Shown here piece after piece: positions 10,179-13,567 of a stretch of DNA of 43,754 nt. How positions within the stretch are numbered: position 1 is the stretch's first letter; each line of letters begins with the position of its first letter. The position numbers and the translations under genes were made by a program. Under the pieces are notes generated by a model. It was not told the DNA's origin. It searched no databases and saw only the letters and a list, made by a program, of their open reading frames with translations. This DNA comes from Bacteroidales bacterium (lineage in GTDB: Bacteria; Bacteroidota; Bacteroidia; Bacteroidales; F082), in NCBI GenBank assembly GCA_017439405.1, contig JAFSJF010000059.1, forward strand, positions 1 to 43,754, written 5' to 3'.

Positions 10179-10206
10179 TGTAACTTTTTTACATGAACTC
10201 CGTATT
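10179..10206 (+). promoter_or_regulatory. ECF-type promoter of the sigma factor gene, TGTAAC-N16-CGTATT
   Basis: TGTAAC (10179-10184), 16 bases, then CGTATT (10201-10206). The same two hexamers with the same 16-base spacing precede the GIN-domain gene (13378-13351, minus strand). The layout is that of ECF sigma promoters (GTAAC-like -35, CGTA-like -10), so the sigma factor probably drives its own gene. A housekeeping-type TTTG (10157-10160) plus TAACTTTT (10181-10188) pair overlaps it. Confidence 0.68.
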
Positions 10207-10216
10207 ATTGCAGACG

Positions 10217-10717
10217 ATGGACAGAAAACAGTTCAACTACTGCGTGGAGCAATATGCCGACCGGCTTTTCCGCTTCGCGTTCGCGAGCCTCCGCAACCGC
10301 GAGCAGGCCGAGGACGTGGTGCAGGAGAGCTTTGCCCGCGTTTGGGAGCGCGTCGAAACGGTGGACTTCGCCACGGCCAAGACCTACCTCTTCAGCACCG
10401 CCCACCACGCAATGATTGACGAAGTACGTCACAACCAACGTTTTGCGAGCGTAGAGGAGATGAAAACAAACGTAGAAGGCAGCACCGTGAGCCGCTATCC
10501 CGACGTGAGCGACATCCTGCATAAGGCCTTGGCCTCCCTGCCCGAAGCACAAAGAAACGCCCTGCTTCTGCGCGACTACGAGGGCTACTCGTACCTAGAA
10601 ATCGGCGACATCACGGGGCAGAGCGAGGCGCAAGTGAAGGTGAACATCTTCCGCGCCCGCACCGCGTTGAAAAACAAACTGAAAAGCATCGACAACCTCA
10701 TAGACATAGAGCCATGA
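10217..10717 (+). CDS. ECF-type RNA polymerase sigma factor (166 aa)
   Basis: It directs RNA polymerase to a dedicated promoter set, probably in response to the envelope state. Region 2 covers about residues 5-75, with EQAEDVVQESFARVWE as the core-binding and -10 recognition helix. Region 4 covers about 102-158, with LPEAQRNALLLRDYEGYSYLEIG and the helix-turn-helix GQSEAQVKVNIFRAR. Length is typical. The ATG at 10217 (MDRKQFNYC) is preferred over the ATG at 10193 because the latter falls inside the promoter. With that promoter the transcript would begin only a few bases before the start, giving an almost leaderless mRNA. The stop overlaps the next gene by 4 bases, the usual coupling of a sigma factor with its anti-sigma factor. 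Confidence 0.9.
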   Translation: MDRKQFNYCVEQYADRLFRFAFASLRNREQAEDVVQESFARVWERVETVDFATAKTYLFSTAHHAMIDEVRHNQRFASVEEMKTNVEGSTVSRYPDVSDILHKALASLPEAQRNALLLRDYEGYSYLEIGDITGQSEAQVKVNIFRARTALKNKLKSIDNLIDIEP

Positions 10718-11553
10718 ACACGAACATCAACATCGACAACTACGAGGCTTATCTCCTTGACTACATGGAAGGTAACATCAGTCCCGAAGGGACGGCAGAA
10801 CTGAAAGCCTTCGTCGCGGCCCAAGGCTTGGACTGGGACGAACTCACCGAGGAACTTCCGCATCTGGAGACTCCTACCCTTGCCTATGAAAACAAGGAAG
10901 GTCTGAAGAAAAGAGCAACTGTCGTACCACTTTACGCCAAAATCGCCTCGGCTGCCGCTGCTGCGGGACTGTTGCTCACCGTGTCGTTGTGGCCGGAGAA
11001 GCAATTGCCCAAGTTGGAACCCATCGCCGACTTGAAGCCCATAGAGGCGACACGAATCGAGAGGCCGTTGGAAAGGCTTATTTTACAAACGAAACCGGCT
11101 CAGTTCGTCAAGCCGAATGTTGTGGTCAAGGAGAAAAAAGCTGAGGTTGAAAAGCATGTCGTTGTCGAGAAAGCTGAGATGCCGATGTTGGCCCAGTTGG
11201 AACCCATCAAAACCGAGAAAGTTCAGATTGCAGCACTTGCAGCCGACATTGAAGAGCCTGATTTCGACTATTTGGCCTATCGCATCAACACTGGAATGGC
11301 TATCGCACAATATGACAGCAATTCGTTTGAAGAAAACGTTGAAGACGAAGACGTTTCCTTTATCGGCAGAGGCTTGCTTTGGCTGACGGGCGGTCGCCAT
11401 TCGAGCCTTGCCAGCCTCATCAACTCGGGATTGAGACAAGCCAAGAAAGAGACCATCGAGGCCGCCACCGACATGGCCTTGGCTGCCTACCAACGCGCTG
11501 ATGAGCAGCTTGCATCGGCCAAGGAACGTTGGGAGGAGAAACGCGGGGAATGA
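10714..11553 (+). CDS. Probable anti-sigma factor, single-pass membrane protein (279 aa)
   Basis: It is inferred to hold the upstream sigma factor at the inner membrane. Residues 1-70 form a soluble acidic domain (NYEAYLLDYMEGNISPEG), a start common to Bacteroidetes anti-sigma-like proteins. One membrane segment lies at about 73-93 (AKIASAAAAAGLLLTV). The rest is an outside-facing region rich in Lys, Glu and Val to about 165, followed by a more ordered C-terminal part (FIGRGLLWLTGGRHSSL) with amphipathic helices at the end. I see no zinc-binding HxxxCxxC motif. The start ATG overlaps the sigma stop (ATGA). The function rests mainly on position and topology, since sequence similarity is weak. 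Confidence 0.68.
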   Translation: MNTNINIDNYEAYLLDYMEGNISPEGTAELKAFVAAQGLDWDELTEELPHLETPTLAYENKEGLKKRATVVPLYAKIASAAAAAGLLLTVSLWPEKQLPKLEPIADLKPIEATRIERPLERLILQTKPAQFVKPNVVVKEKKAEVEKHVVVEKAEMPMLAQLEPIKTEKVQIAALAADIEEPDFDYLAYRINTGMAIAQYDSNSFEENVEDEDVSFIGRGLLWLTGGRHSSLASLINSGLRQAKKETIEAATDMALAAYQRADEQLASAKERWEEKRGE

Positions 11554-11563
11554 GTTTCTTTTT

Positions 11564-11820
11564 CACGCAGAATACGCTGAATTATGGGAAGCGCGAAGCG
11601 ACGCTGTTTCTTCTCACGCAGAATGCGCAGAACCTTGGGAATGGTCGCCTCTTTGCGCCGACATGCTTCGTGTCATTAAGCAAAACAAAGCAATCCAGAG
11701 AATAACATCTCTGGATTGCTTCGTCGTGCCTCCTCGCAATGACGCAAAGCGGCGAAAAACTGGTATTCATCAGGTTCTGCGTATTCTGCGATTTCTGCGT
11801 GAGATATTTTCTGCGTGAGA
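11564..11820. repeat. Intergenic repeat cluster, locus 1 (CACGCAGAAT family)
   Basis: Copies of CACGCAGAATnCGC at 11564-11580 and 11615-11632, and the inverted form TTCTGCGTATTCTGCG with repeats to CTGCGTGAGA at 11775-11820. The 18-mer CACGCAGAATGCGCAGAA (11615-11632) recurs exactly at 15916-15933. GAAGCGCGAAGCGACG (11588-11603) recurs inverted at 15963-15978. No gene is visible in the 273 bases between the two convergent genes. Confidence 0.75.
11688..11721. terminator. 13-bp perfect hairpin, possible bidirectional terminator
   Basis: AAGCAATCCAGAG (11688-11700) pairs with CTCTGGATTGCTT (11709-11721) over an 8-base loop. It is centred between two convergent genes. It lacks a strong T tract, so it may be only a repeat element. 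Confidence 0.45.
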
Positions 11821-11826
11821 TTATCC

Positions 11827-13302
11827 TCAGAAATTGATGCTAAACCCCAACATAAGCGGGTGCGCCTTGGCTGCATCACGACCTTTAACGTAGGTGGGAA
11901 CAAGCGCATAGTTGGCAAAGAAGCCCAAATTCTCGCCACCGATACGGAACGAGGCATCACATTTGAAGAGGTTGGTCAAGTAGTTGTTATAGGTCTTCTC
12001 ATTGCTGCCGTCGGCAAACTTGATGCGAGTCCAAGAGGCGAGGCGAATGCCGCCCGTCACGCCAAAGTCGATGTAGAAATGGCGCGTTGGCCTCACCTCG
12101 ATCATCAGCGGGACTTGGGCATAGAGCAAGCCGAATTTACTATTCTTCACTGGGCGGTCGTCGGGCAGCAAAGTGTTGACCAACTCATTGTTTTCCACCG
12201 TCATCCTGATATAGTTCTTCCAGCTGTAGTTGTTCCAGCCGATGCCGATGCCCGTGAACAGCCCGACCGTGTGCTTCCTGTTGAAAGCAACGCCCACATC
12301 GGCGATGTTGAAGCCGAAATACCAGCTGCGCATCGGGCGGATGGCCATCAAGTCATCGAGGCCTGTGTAGGTGTTCATGGCCGACGGGTCAAGGAGCATG
12401 TTCAAGCCCGCCTCGAAGCCGTTCCAATGGGCATCGAAGAGGAGGTTTTTCTTCTCGCCGCACTTCCTTTCTGAGTTGTACTTATAGGAAACCACGTTCT
12501 TGTGTCCATCCGACATAATCTCGCCCGAACCCGTTGAAGTGAAACGCGATTGGTCATAATGCAATTCAGGTACCCGCAAGTCGCCTGAACCCGTGAGTGT
12601 GGCGTTAATCATCTTGCACTGCCCCTTGAGTGTGACATCGCCTGATCCAATCATTTTAATGTTGATGGTATCATAATCCACGTCCAACCTAATGTCGCCT
12701 GAGCCTAGCACAACAATGTCGAGTGTTTTGCCTTTTATCACGCCGCTGCCAATGACATCGCCAGAACCGCGAATGATGATTTTGTCAAGCTGCGGCATGG
12801 CGACATCATAATCACTTGAGCCTTTAAAAAACACATTGCCATCCACTACATACCTGTCGGAAGCGCCCATGTCGCCACTCGAGAGCGAGAATCCGTCCTG
12901 ACTTTGCCTGATTGTCACATTGCCGGAACCTTCAACAGTGATGGCATGGGCCTGCGAATCGTCATTCTTCAAAAGCTGATAGTTGAAGGACTTATCAAAC
13001 TGTTTTTCAAACTTGTCGCCCCACTTTTCCATCTCTTTCCCCCACTGCTCCATTTCCTTGCCCCATTGTTCCATGTCGCGTTCAAAAGTCTTCCAGTCCA
13101 CCGAATCGGAAAGTTTCTGGAGCACCCCCCCCATCTCGCGCATCCTCTCGGCAAATTGCTCTTGGCTTTGCGACAATTCAGCCATTCGGCTCTTCATGAT
13201 GCTATCCGTTTTAGGATCAATCGGTTTGGATTCATTCACCTGCGCCTTCATCGTTCCGAAGGCCAGCAGCAGCAAGGCTGCCAAAATCATTCTTTTTTTC
13301 AT
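11827..13302 (-). CDS. GIN-domain (DUF2807) protein with C-terminal outer-membrane beta-barrel (491 aa)
   Basis: An envelope protein with an unusual fusion. A signal peptide spans residues 1-21 (MILAALLLLAF, ending MKAQ). About 45-110 is a charged helical stretch with a seven-residue repeat (EQWGKEM, EQWGKEM, EKWGDKF), likely a coiled coil. The putative head GIN domain covers about 115-275, shown by recurring GSGxV or GSGD turns of a right-handed beta-helix. The rest (about 290-491) alternates polar and hydrophobic residues and ends in phenylalanine, as outer-membrane barrels do. The ATG at 13302 is chosen because it gives a clean signal peptide; the frame is open to 13365. Its promoter matches that of the sigma factor gene, with which it converges. 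Confidence 0.8.
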   Translation of the reverse strand: MKKRMILAALLLLAFGTMKAQVNESKPIDPKTDSIMKSRMAELSQSQEQFAERMREMGGVLQKLSDSVDWKTFERDMEQWGKEMEQWGKEMEKWGDKFEKQFDKSFNYQLLKNDDSQAHAITVEGSGNVTIRQSQDGFSLSSGDMGASDRYVVDGNVFFKGSSDYDVAMPQLDKIIIRGSGDVIGSGVIKGKTLDIVVLGSGDIRLDVDYDTINIKMIGSGDVTLKGQCKMINATLTGSGDLRVPELHYDQSRFTSTGSGEIMSDGHKNVVSYKYNSERKCGEKKNLLFDAHWNGFEAGLNMLLDPSAMNTYTGLDDLMAIRPMRSWYFGFNIADVGVAFNRKHTVGLFTGIGIGWNNYSWKNYIRMTVENNELVNTLLPDDRPVKNSKFGLLYAQVPLMIEVRPTRHFYIDFGVTGGIRLASWTRIKFADGSNEKTYNNYLTNLFKCDASFRIGGENLGFFANYALVPTYVKGRDAAKAHPLMLGFSINF

Positions 13303-13350
13303 TTTTTGTTGATGTTTTAGTTGTTTGTTGTTCTTCTTATCAACAAACGT

Positions 13351-13378
13351 AATACGAAGAAACACGGAAAAAGTTACA
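13351..13378 (-). promoter_or_regulatory. ECF-type promoter of the GIN-domain gene, TGTAAC-N16-CGTATT
   Basis: On the minus strand, TGTAAC (13378-13373), 16 bases, CGTATT (13356-13351), identical in both hexamers and spacing to the sigma gene promoter. A housekeeping-like TACGTTTG (13351-13344) follows directly. The start codon is 49 bases beyond the CGTATT box. Confidence 0.66.
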
Positions 13379-13480
13379 GGTCAAAAACAGACTTTTCTCA
13401 ACAAAATTCCATCAATTTCACAAAAACAAACACAGCAATCACGATATTAAGTAATTACAATTTTATACAACCATGAAAAA

Positions 13481-13567
13481 GTAACTTATTGCAGGTAATT
13501 TGACAGTTTTTTAGTAACTTATTGCAGGTAATTTCGCTTTTCCAAGGTAACTTTTTGCAGGTAAAGT
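13481..13567. repeat. Three direct repeats with a 33-bp period
   Basis: Units begin at 13481, 13514 and 13547. The first two share GTAACTTATTGCAGGTAATT exactly; the third is GTAACTTTTTGCAGGTAAAG. The stretches between units are unrelated to each other. On the minus strand the units keep one reading frame and read LPAISY or LPAKSY, interrupted by one stop. A 23-codon frame (13577-13509, starting ATG) contains two of them, directly after the mannosidase stop. The rest of this 283-base gap holds only the GIN promoter and AT-rich sequence. Confidence 0.8.

Follow-up and report, generated by a model that had tools for sequence, protein, structure and literature searches.

A predicted autoregulated ECF sigma factor module with an envelope-protein output in Bacteroidota

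The functions and networks of many extracytoplasmic function (ECF) sigma factors of Bacteroidota remain obscure; Bacteroides thetaiotaomicron has 50 of them, according to the accessible part of one report (PMC12596196). In the Das/Dma system of this species, the protein Dma combines an anti-sigma domain, a transmembrane helix, a tether and a barrel, its partner is an ECF21 factor, and the system's own operon is strongly upregulated once the sigma factor is freed, as far as the available text describes it (PMC13088901). Here we analyzed a DNA stretch of 43,754 nt (the window; contig JAFSJF010000059.1 of assembly GCA_017439405.1, Bacteroidales bacterium, F082; genome label G000), in which an ECF sigma factor gene overlapping that of a putative anti-sigma factor, and a convergent gene for a GIN/barrel envelope protein, stand behind two copies of one ECF-type promoter. 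Comparison with related genomes makes it highly probable that these genes form an autoregulated envelope module, wherein the neighbouring sigma factor would drive its own operon, the GIN/barrel gene and further genes. Like Das/Dma in the description available, the module belongs to a Bacteroidota ECF factor and has a barrel and a putative anti-sigma factor with one apparent transmembrane helix and a long tether. Unlike in Das/Dma, the barrel is a separate protein, sometimes headed by a GIN domain, and no fused anti-sigma/barrel open reading frame (ORF) was found in 80 named sigma loci among the matches listed by a sigma profile search. With anti-sigma factor and barrel encoded by different genes at every locus examined, the module lacks the fusion that characterizes Das/Dma, which was compared by its description; it may work like Das/Dma despite the separate barrel.

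Other described systems share single traits with the module. The curated family nearest to the sigma factor is sigma_PG0214 (NF058625; GFO_1088 family ECF; Porphyromonas gingivalis PG0214), with a score below the family cut-off. PG0214 is presumably the gene PGN_0319. A PGN_0319 mutant appears in a biofilm study, the accessible part of which gives no promoter or regulon (PMC4324044). The SM6 promoters of Flavobacterium psychrophilum, in the portion of that report at hand, likewise have a CGT box at -10 and an anti-sigma/ECF pair among their genes, but the main text of that report contains no TGTAAC, and type IX secretion system genes are among the SM6 targets (PMC9723704). A survey of the Toastrack domain, as partly available, unified DUF2807, the domain of GIN proteins, with domains linked to the phage shock protein (PSP) response, and mentioned GntR-ABC operons (ABC, ATP-binding cassette) and an operonically linked sigma factor (PMC11237479). 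Our module resembles such Toastrack/PSP systems (Lia, PspC, GntR-ABC-Toastrack) in that PspC is among the predicted targets of two relatives and a GntR-ABC-GIN operon occurs in the own genome. It differs in that its genes have a common ECF promoter in trans, and in that the GIN proteins carry apparent signal peptides and one of them continues into a barrel; the survey, in the part available, argues that the domain is intracellular (PMC11237479). A partly accessible report deals with a DUF2807 protein of P. gingivalis in the role of an adhesin (PMC10949514). A surface role and a stress role of DUF2807 proteins are not mutually exclusive. In Escherichia coli, the envelope ECF factor sigma-E is encoded in an autoregulated operon and acts with the small RNAs RybB and MicA; the module resembles it in its probably autoregulated operon and possibly in a small RNA arm, the RNA here being a candidate only.

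The promoter copy of the sigma/anti-sigma operon lies at 10179..10207 on the plus strand and consists of a -35 box TGTAAC (10179-10184), a 16-base spacer beginning with a T-tract, a -10 box CGTATT (10201-10206) and a following A. The second copy, before the GIN/barrel gene, occupies 13350..13378 on the minus strand, with the exact motif at 13378-13351, again followed by A. The original prediction, made from the window alone, had claimed this pair, TGTAAC-N16-CGTATT, with identical hexamers and spacing, differing spacer letters and extra T residues after TGTAAC. All of this was confirmed, TTTTT standing behind the -35 box at both sites. No third TGTAAC-N16-CGTATT occurs anywhere in the window; dinucleotide shuffles of it gave a mean of 0.01 matches, and two matches in 0/100 shuffles. 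CGTATT ends 48 nt before the ATG of the GIN/barrel gene and 10 nt before the sigma ATG at 10217, so that a transcript beginning 6-9 nt downstream would leave the sigma mRNA with almost no leader. ATG 10217 is most likely the sigma start; an ATG at 10193 was rejected, being located inside the promoter motif, and orthologs align from 10217.

The own assembly comprises 3.53 Mb in 159 contigs and is 98.2% complete. In it, TGTAAC-N15..17-CGTATT occurs at 6 sites versus 1 for the reversed pattern, which served as the specificity control for each motif in the same genomes. The spacer is 16 in all six, A directly follows CGTATT in each, and a same-strand start codon lies 10-95 bp downstream. Requiring the T-tract (GTAACTTTTT-N8..12-CGTATT) leaves 3 sites versus 0 reversed, standing before the sigma gene, the GIN/barrel gene and a second GIN (DUF2807) gene on another contig (G000:C91). 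Of the sites without the full T-tract, the one on C40 precedes a gene whose product has a carboxypeptidase-regulatory match below cut-off, the one on C73 the gene of an ABC-type ATPase, as judged by eye, and the one on C112 the gene of a 4Fe-4S protein.

The C112 site TGTAACAAAATCCGCTCTTCTCCGTATTA (G000:C112:1119-1147, plus strand; L013) is identical including its spacer in G021, G016 and G023, with one change in G028 and G022; T-tract sites, by contrast, have drifting spacers. Perhaps this site belongs to another ECF factor or to a recently spread gene, judging from its sequence.

The sigma factor gene (10217..10717, plus strand) encodes 166 amino acids, within the ECF size range of about 160-200, and its Pfam domain content is confined to sigma-70 regions 2 and 4 (Sigma70_r2, 8e-16, residues 10-75; Sigma70_r4_2, 4e-16, residues 99-151). 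NF058625, its nearest NCBIfam model, scored 121.2 bits, under the cut-off of 130; the same family was the best NCBIfam match in 9/10 orthologs tested, one of which passed the cut-off (L148, 134.5 bits). The anti-sigma gene (10714..11553, plus strand; 279 amino acids) overlaps the sigma stop in ATGA. Since the window protein matched no Pfam or NCBIfam model, it is named by its position and conservation: a homolog adjoins the sigma gene in 39/39 inspected genomes (phmmer E 2e-181 to 1e-3). By eye it has a single hydrophobic stretch at about residues 74-93. A conservation profile of 30 sequences (its own, 28 from the genus, one of them partial, and one from outside it) shows that the N-terminal part is kept, the tether at 111-180 is variable and the C-terminal part at 181-275 is partly conserved.

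The convergent gene at 11827..13302 on the minus strand encodes a protein of 491 amino acids with a signal peptide, a helical hairpin, a GIN beta-helix, a disordered linker and a C-terminal beta-barrel. The GIN domain (DUF2807, PF10988, Toastrack) matched at 5e-19 and 69.2 bits against a cut-off of 24.2. An AlphaFold model places helices at 30-103, the beta-helix at about 120-264 and barrel strands at 295-490; its domains are more reliable than their mutual orientation, since the mean predicted local distance difference test score (pLDDT) is 80.6 but the predicted template modelling score (pTM) is 0.47. Foldseek searches with this model gave best matches that include the GIN adhesins 4ygu and 3pet and OmpA/Ail barrels. 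The barrel of the window protein is seen in the AlphaFold model, as Pfam did not list OMP_b-brl_2 (PF13568) for it; that family is above cut-off in the homologs L208, L218, L214 and L170, whose barrels match a model of the genus barrel. DUF2807 match, structure model and Foldseek matches thus agree with the earlier proposal that the output is an envelope protein joining a GIN beta-helix to a barrel.

The relatives panel comprised 80 genomes, own included, of which 48 were from the same genus and 32 from other families. A sigma ortholog (E <= 1e-30) is present in 46/80, namely 29/48 of the genus and 17/32 of the other families; all 29 genus loci and 10 from other families made up the 39 inspected genomes. 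The convergent layout of the window recurs in 19/29 sigma-positive genus genomes, with the promoter before both sigma and GIN genes in 19/19; 35 of these 38 sites match at 12/12 bases and 3 have one mismatch (the sigma sites of G002 and G023 and the GIN site of G047). In 9/29 the genes run in one direction in the order GIN-sigma-anti-sigma, and a single site, in the CGTCTT form, stands before GIN in 9/9. The remaining genome, G014, has sigma and anti-sigma genes on a 6.3-kb contig with no GIN gene, and its sigma site matches at 10/12. Boxes are kept while spacers and flanks differ between species at 75-86% sigma identity, and the distance from the end of CGTATT to the sigma start is 10-13 nt in 16/18 convergent orthologs and 30 and 33 nt in the remaining pair. 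The promoter, as predicted from these sequences, precedes the leading gene of each unit whichever way the genes are ordered, which offers a natural experiment on the need for co-expression. A second, later panel of 99 genus genomes contained 57 sigma-positive ones, 28 of them new; the loci of the 14 closer ones were read, and the site is present in 14/14 (13 at 13/13 positions, 1 at 12).

The branching of the sigma tree leaves undecided a single origin of each of the two genus layouts. The -10 variant (CGTATT versus CGTCTT) was rejected as a strict clade mark, as both forms co-occur in G021, G030 and G020. In one assembly (G016:C25:1001-1390) the sigma match is partial, with one TAG, and both promoters are intact.

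The site upstream of sigma recurs across the phylum sample of 80 listed sigma loci, 12 of which are contigs already counted among the panel genomes. By title, the closest are from ruminant-gut Bacteroidales, others from Flavobacteriales, Chitinophagales and Chlorobiota. Within 150 bp upstream of sigma, a motif score of at least 10/13 was found in 73/80 loci (random windows, 8.6%) and of at least 11/13 in 70/80 (random windows, 2.9%), the random windows being taken from the same loci with true sites left in. The seven loci under score 10 are GIN-first operons (L156-L162). Among the 63 listed loci placed outside the genus clade by sigma identity, [ACT]GTAAC occurs within 60 bp in 53 (random, 3.5%); 57 occurrences were followed by CGT at spacing 16 in 30, at spacing 17 in 19 and at neither in 8. 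An ORF matching the barrel model of the window protein is present in 34/63, usually next after the anti-sigma gene, which makes sigma-anti-sigma-barrel in one direction a common order outside the genus; it was not found in 29/63, where some stretches are short. The GIN model matched 14 of these 34 barrel proteins and not the other 20. L208 combines DUF2807 with OMP_b-brl_2, and barrel-only homologs also match OMP_b-brl_2. Judged from these matches, the barrel is the most widespread part of the output and the GIN head is optional. One Bacteroidota ECF family thereby gains a predicted promoter, a predicted regulon and a widespread module of sigma factor, tethered anti-sigma factor and barrel with optional GIN head.

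The predicted regulon exceeds the module: sequence matches extend it to a second GIN lipoprotein, with PspC, peptidases and further candidate targets in relatives. Outside the module, 22 of 24 T-tract sites in the genus stand 21-219 bp before a same-strand ORF. Assigned by Pfam on one representative per kind and otherwise by eye from similar N-termini, the 22 targets are the second GIN lipoprotein (11), M13 peptidase (3), PspC (2), S41 peptidase (1), a beta-lactamase-fold protein (1), a weakly barrel-like protein (1), a carboxypeptidase-regulatory/plug protein (1) and two of no named family. The other two sites (in G007 and G032) have no plausible gene behind them, a 297-codon GTG ORF in G032 being judged spurious. 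The second GIN gene of the own genome follows GntR-ABC genes, and TGTAAC holds the TAA stop of GntR; several relatives have a similar overlap, judged from their sequences. A cluster with the order ABC, permease, GntR and GIN, in which the -35 TGTAAC contains the GntR TAA stop, was also seen at L010 (4087-7202). That every GIN gene belongs to the regulon was rejected, since 4/6 DUF2807 genes of the own genome lack a site. GIN/DUF2807 proteins are usually annotated as adhesins, and the regulon suggests the hypothesis that they are outputs of an envelope response.

The specificity of the motif depends on the T-tract. TGTAACWTTTT-N11-CGTMTTA occurs at 73 sites in the 80 genomes (68 in the genus), its reversed pattern at 0. 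Among genus genomes, 29/29 sigma-positive versus 1/19 sigma-negative ones carry it (Fisher 2.6e-12), and 16/29 versus 1/19 carry it outside the module (p 4.8e-4), values that overstate independence because the genomes are related. A motif frequent at random positions had been named as grounds for abandoning the original prediction. For the T-tract form this is not what was found, as it has 0 reversed matches and tracks the sigma gene in the genus; the bare hexamers are near background in relatives.

Several observations, the relatedness of the genomes among them, weigh against the module as we read it. The bare pair TGTAAC-N13..17-CGTMTTA has 87 matches versus 78 reversed in 48 relatives (60 versus 43 in the 29 genus genomes of this set). 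G037 has a T-tract site and no detected sigma gene, in an assembly 73% complete. For other families the strict T-tract form carries little information, occurring in 3/17 sigma-positive versus 1/15 sigma-negative genomes, and only 2 of the 10 loci from other families have a site of at least 11/12 bases at spacing 16, since the spacer there is often 17 and the boxes vary. In the own genome, 4/6 DUF2807 genes are without a site, 3/6 sites do not have the whole T-tract and might be those of another factor, and contamination of the assembly is 5.21%. Finally, the activating signal and any contact between anti-sigma factor and barrel are matters that we infer.

We propose the following mechanism. 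The anti-sigma factor would hold the sigma factor at the inner membrane. A disturbance might be sensed through the tether and conserved C-terminus of the anti-sigma factor, with the condition of the outer-membrane barrel protein as the possible cue, and the sigma factor would then be freed. Free sigma factor would activate its own operon, giving positive feedback with extra inhibitor as a brake, and would also direct synthesis of the GIN/barrel protein and of the second GIN lipoprotein behind the GntR-ABC operon, as well as of PspC, M13 peptidase or S41 peptidase in some species. The envelope would thus be reinforced or repaired.

Conservation, gene order and co-occurrence support the claims that the sigma and GIN/barrel genes have a common ECF-type promoter and that the sigma/anti-sigma operon, with its own promoter copy, is autoregulated, the latter by sequence comparison across relatives; genome co-occurrence suggests that the predicted promoters depend on the neighbouring sigma factor. 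The sites could instead be ECF promoters read by a paralogous factor or by several overlapping ones, with no autoregulation by the neighbour. SM6 CGT-box promoters of F. psychrophilum may serve several ECF factors, in the part of that work available (PMC9723704); other ECF factors are likely in the own genome, where a loose first search gave 10 unverified candidates, and G037 has the site with no sigma gene detected. However, T-tract sites in the genus track this particular sigma gene (29/29 versus 1/19) and the promoter keeps to whichever module gene is first, and we regard reading by other factors as improbable. That the motif is a repressor or activator binding site, for example for the GntR beside the second GIN gene, would suit the overlap of the third own-genome site with the GntR stop codon. 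It is very improbable, given two boxes in -35/-10 layout at near-constant spacing on the strand of the downstream gene, with 10-13 nt between CGTATT and the sigma start in 16/18 convergent orthologs. The near-background counts of bare box pairs in relatives would fit resemblance by chance or from repeats, but boxes kept while spacers and flanks differ, and the absence of any reversed T-tract match in 80 genomes, make this hardly credible.

Compatible with the autoregulated module is a further hypothesis about sensing, namely that anti-sigma factor and GIN/barrel protein are a split Das/Dma, the barrel being an outer-membrane sensor read by the end of the tether. A precedent, in the text accessible, is the domain arrangement of Dma, together with the ECF21 factor that it partners and the strongly raised expression of the operon encoding the system (PMC13088901). 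The hydrophobic stretch, variable tether (111-180) and conserved C-terminus (181-275) of the anti-sigma factor accord with this idea, as does a barrel gene in 34/63 listed loci outside the genus. Against it, the anti-sigma model and the barrel model have no ORF in common in the 80 listed loci, and no barrel was found in 29/63, some stretches being short; on balance we think a split Das/Dma unlikely, if conceivable.

The literature searched, with ECF classification papers outside its scope and sources partly accessible, contained no description of a TGTAAC/T-tract/CGTATT promoter. An ECF autoregulatory module is known in principle; going by the same literature, the composition found here, with a separate barrel, an optional GIN head and a second GIN gene predicted to be regulated in trans, is new.

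A candidate small RNA lies outside the window, behind the second GIN gene. There, at G000:C91:5011-5077 on the minus strand, a conserved element of about 28 nt, AGTAAATCnCTTTTTCATAnCCTTGT, is followed by a hairpin. Across 17 genomes the element hardly varies; in 13 it lies behind the second GIN gene, and 4 lack that gene. The GC-rich hairpin after it varies in sequence and was found in 17/17 genomes folded singly, the T-run behind it not being clear in all. In the four free-standing cases (G007, G012, G032 and G043; loci L234, L237, L241 and L256) no GIN gene separates promoter and element, which are exactly 6 bp apart; transcription would thus begin near the element and could terminate after some 65-75 nt. 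The spacer is 17 in G012 and the -10 box is CGTATCA in G043. Tentatively, and with the odds somewhat against it, these sequences suggest that the regulon includes a small RNA repressing envelope-protein synthesis in the manner of the enterobacterial sigma-E RNAs, derived from the 3' untranslated region in most species and free-standing in others. If this is true, the candidate would be an ECF-driven envelope RNA in Bacteroidota, of which a literature search at title and abstract level found no case among the papers listed.

A model of the element (R1), built from the 17 sequences, matched 35/99 genus genomes at E < 1e-9, 18 of them new, with two copies in G032 and one in each other positive genome. 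It scores sequence only, because RNAalifold on a MAFFT alignment of the element gave no common base pair, probably owing to misaligned hairpins. The sigma gene is present in 33/35 carriers, the others being G108 and G129 (80% and 71% complete), and the element was not found in 24/57 sigma-positive genus genomes. G014 has the second GIN gene without the element. The promoter site of the second GIN gene was found in 13/14 further genomes with the 3' element, at 12-13/13 positions, and not in the G108 stretch. Rfam at gathering scores gave no match in 5 loci. A search of the own genome for targets (15-mer, up to 2 mismatches) was weak, with 18 matches, the element itself included, versus 8 reversed; 4/18 begin an ORF that by eye resembles a signal-peptide gene. 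The complement of the element, AAGGTATGAAAAAG, resembles the start region of a secreted-protein gene. An antisense gene starting at the element was rejected, as only three codons precede a stop in its frame in G021, G016, G047, G018 and G019. In the sigma tree, G007 and G012 group with the GIN-bearing G000 (support 100/97), and G032 and G043 fall elsewhere, in an unresolved part; the free-standing form thus probably goes back to more than one event.

Within the window, three near-copies of a direct repeat (agtaacttattgcaggtaa...) lie at 13480-13566, upstream of the GIN/barrel promoter and, as judged by eye, on the side of a glycoside hydrolase.

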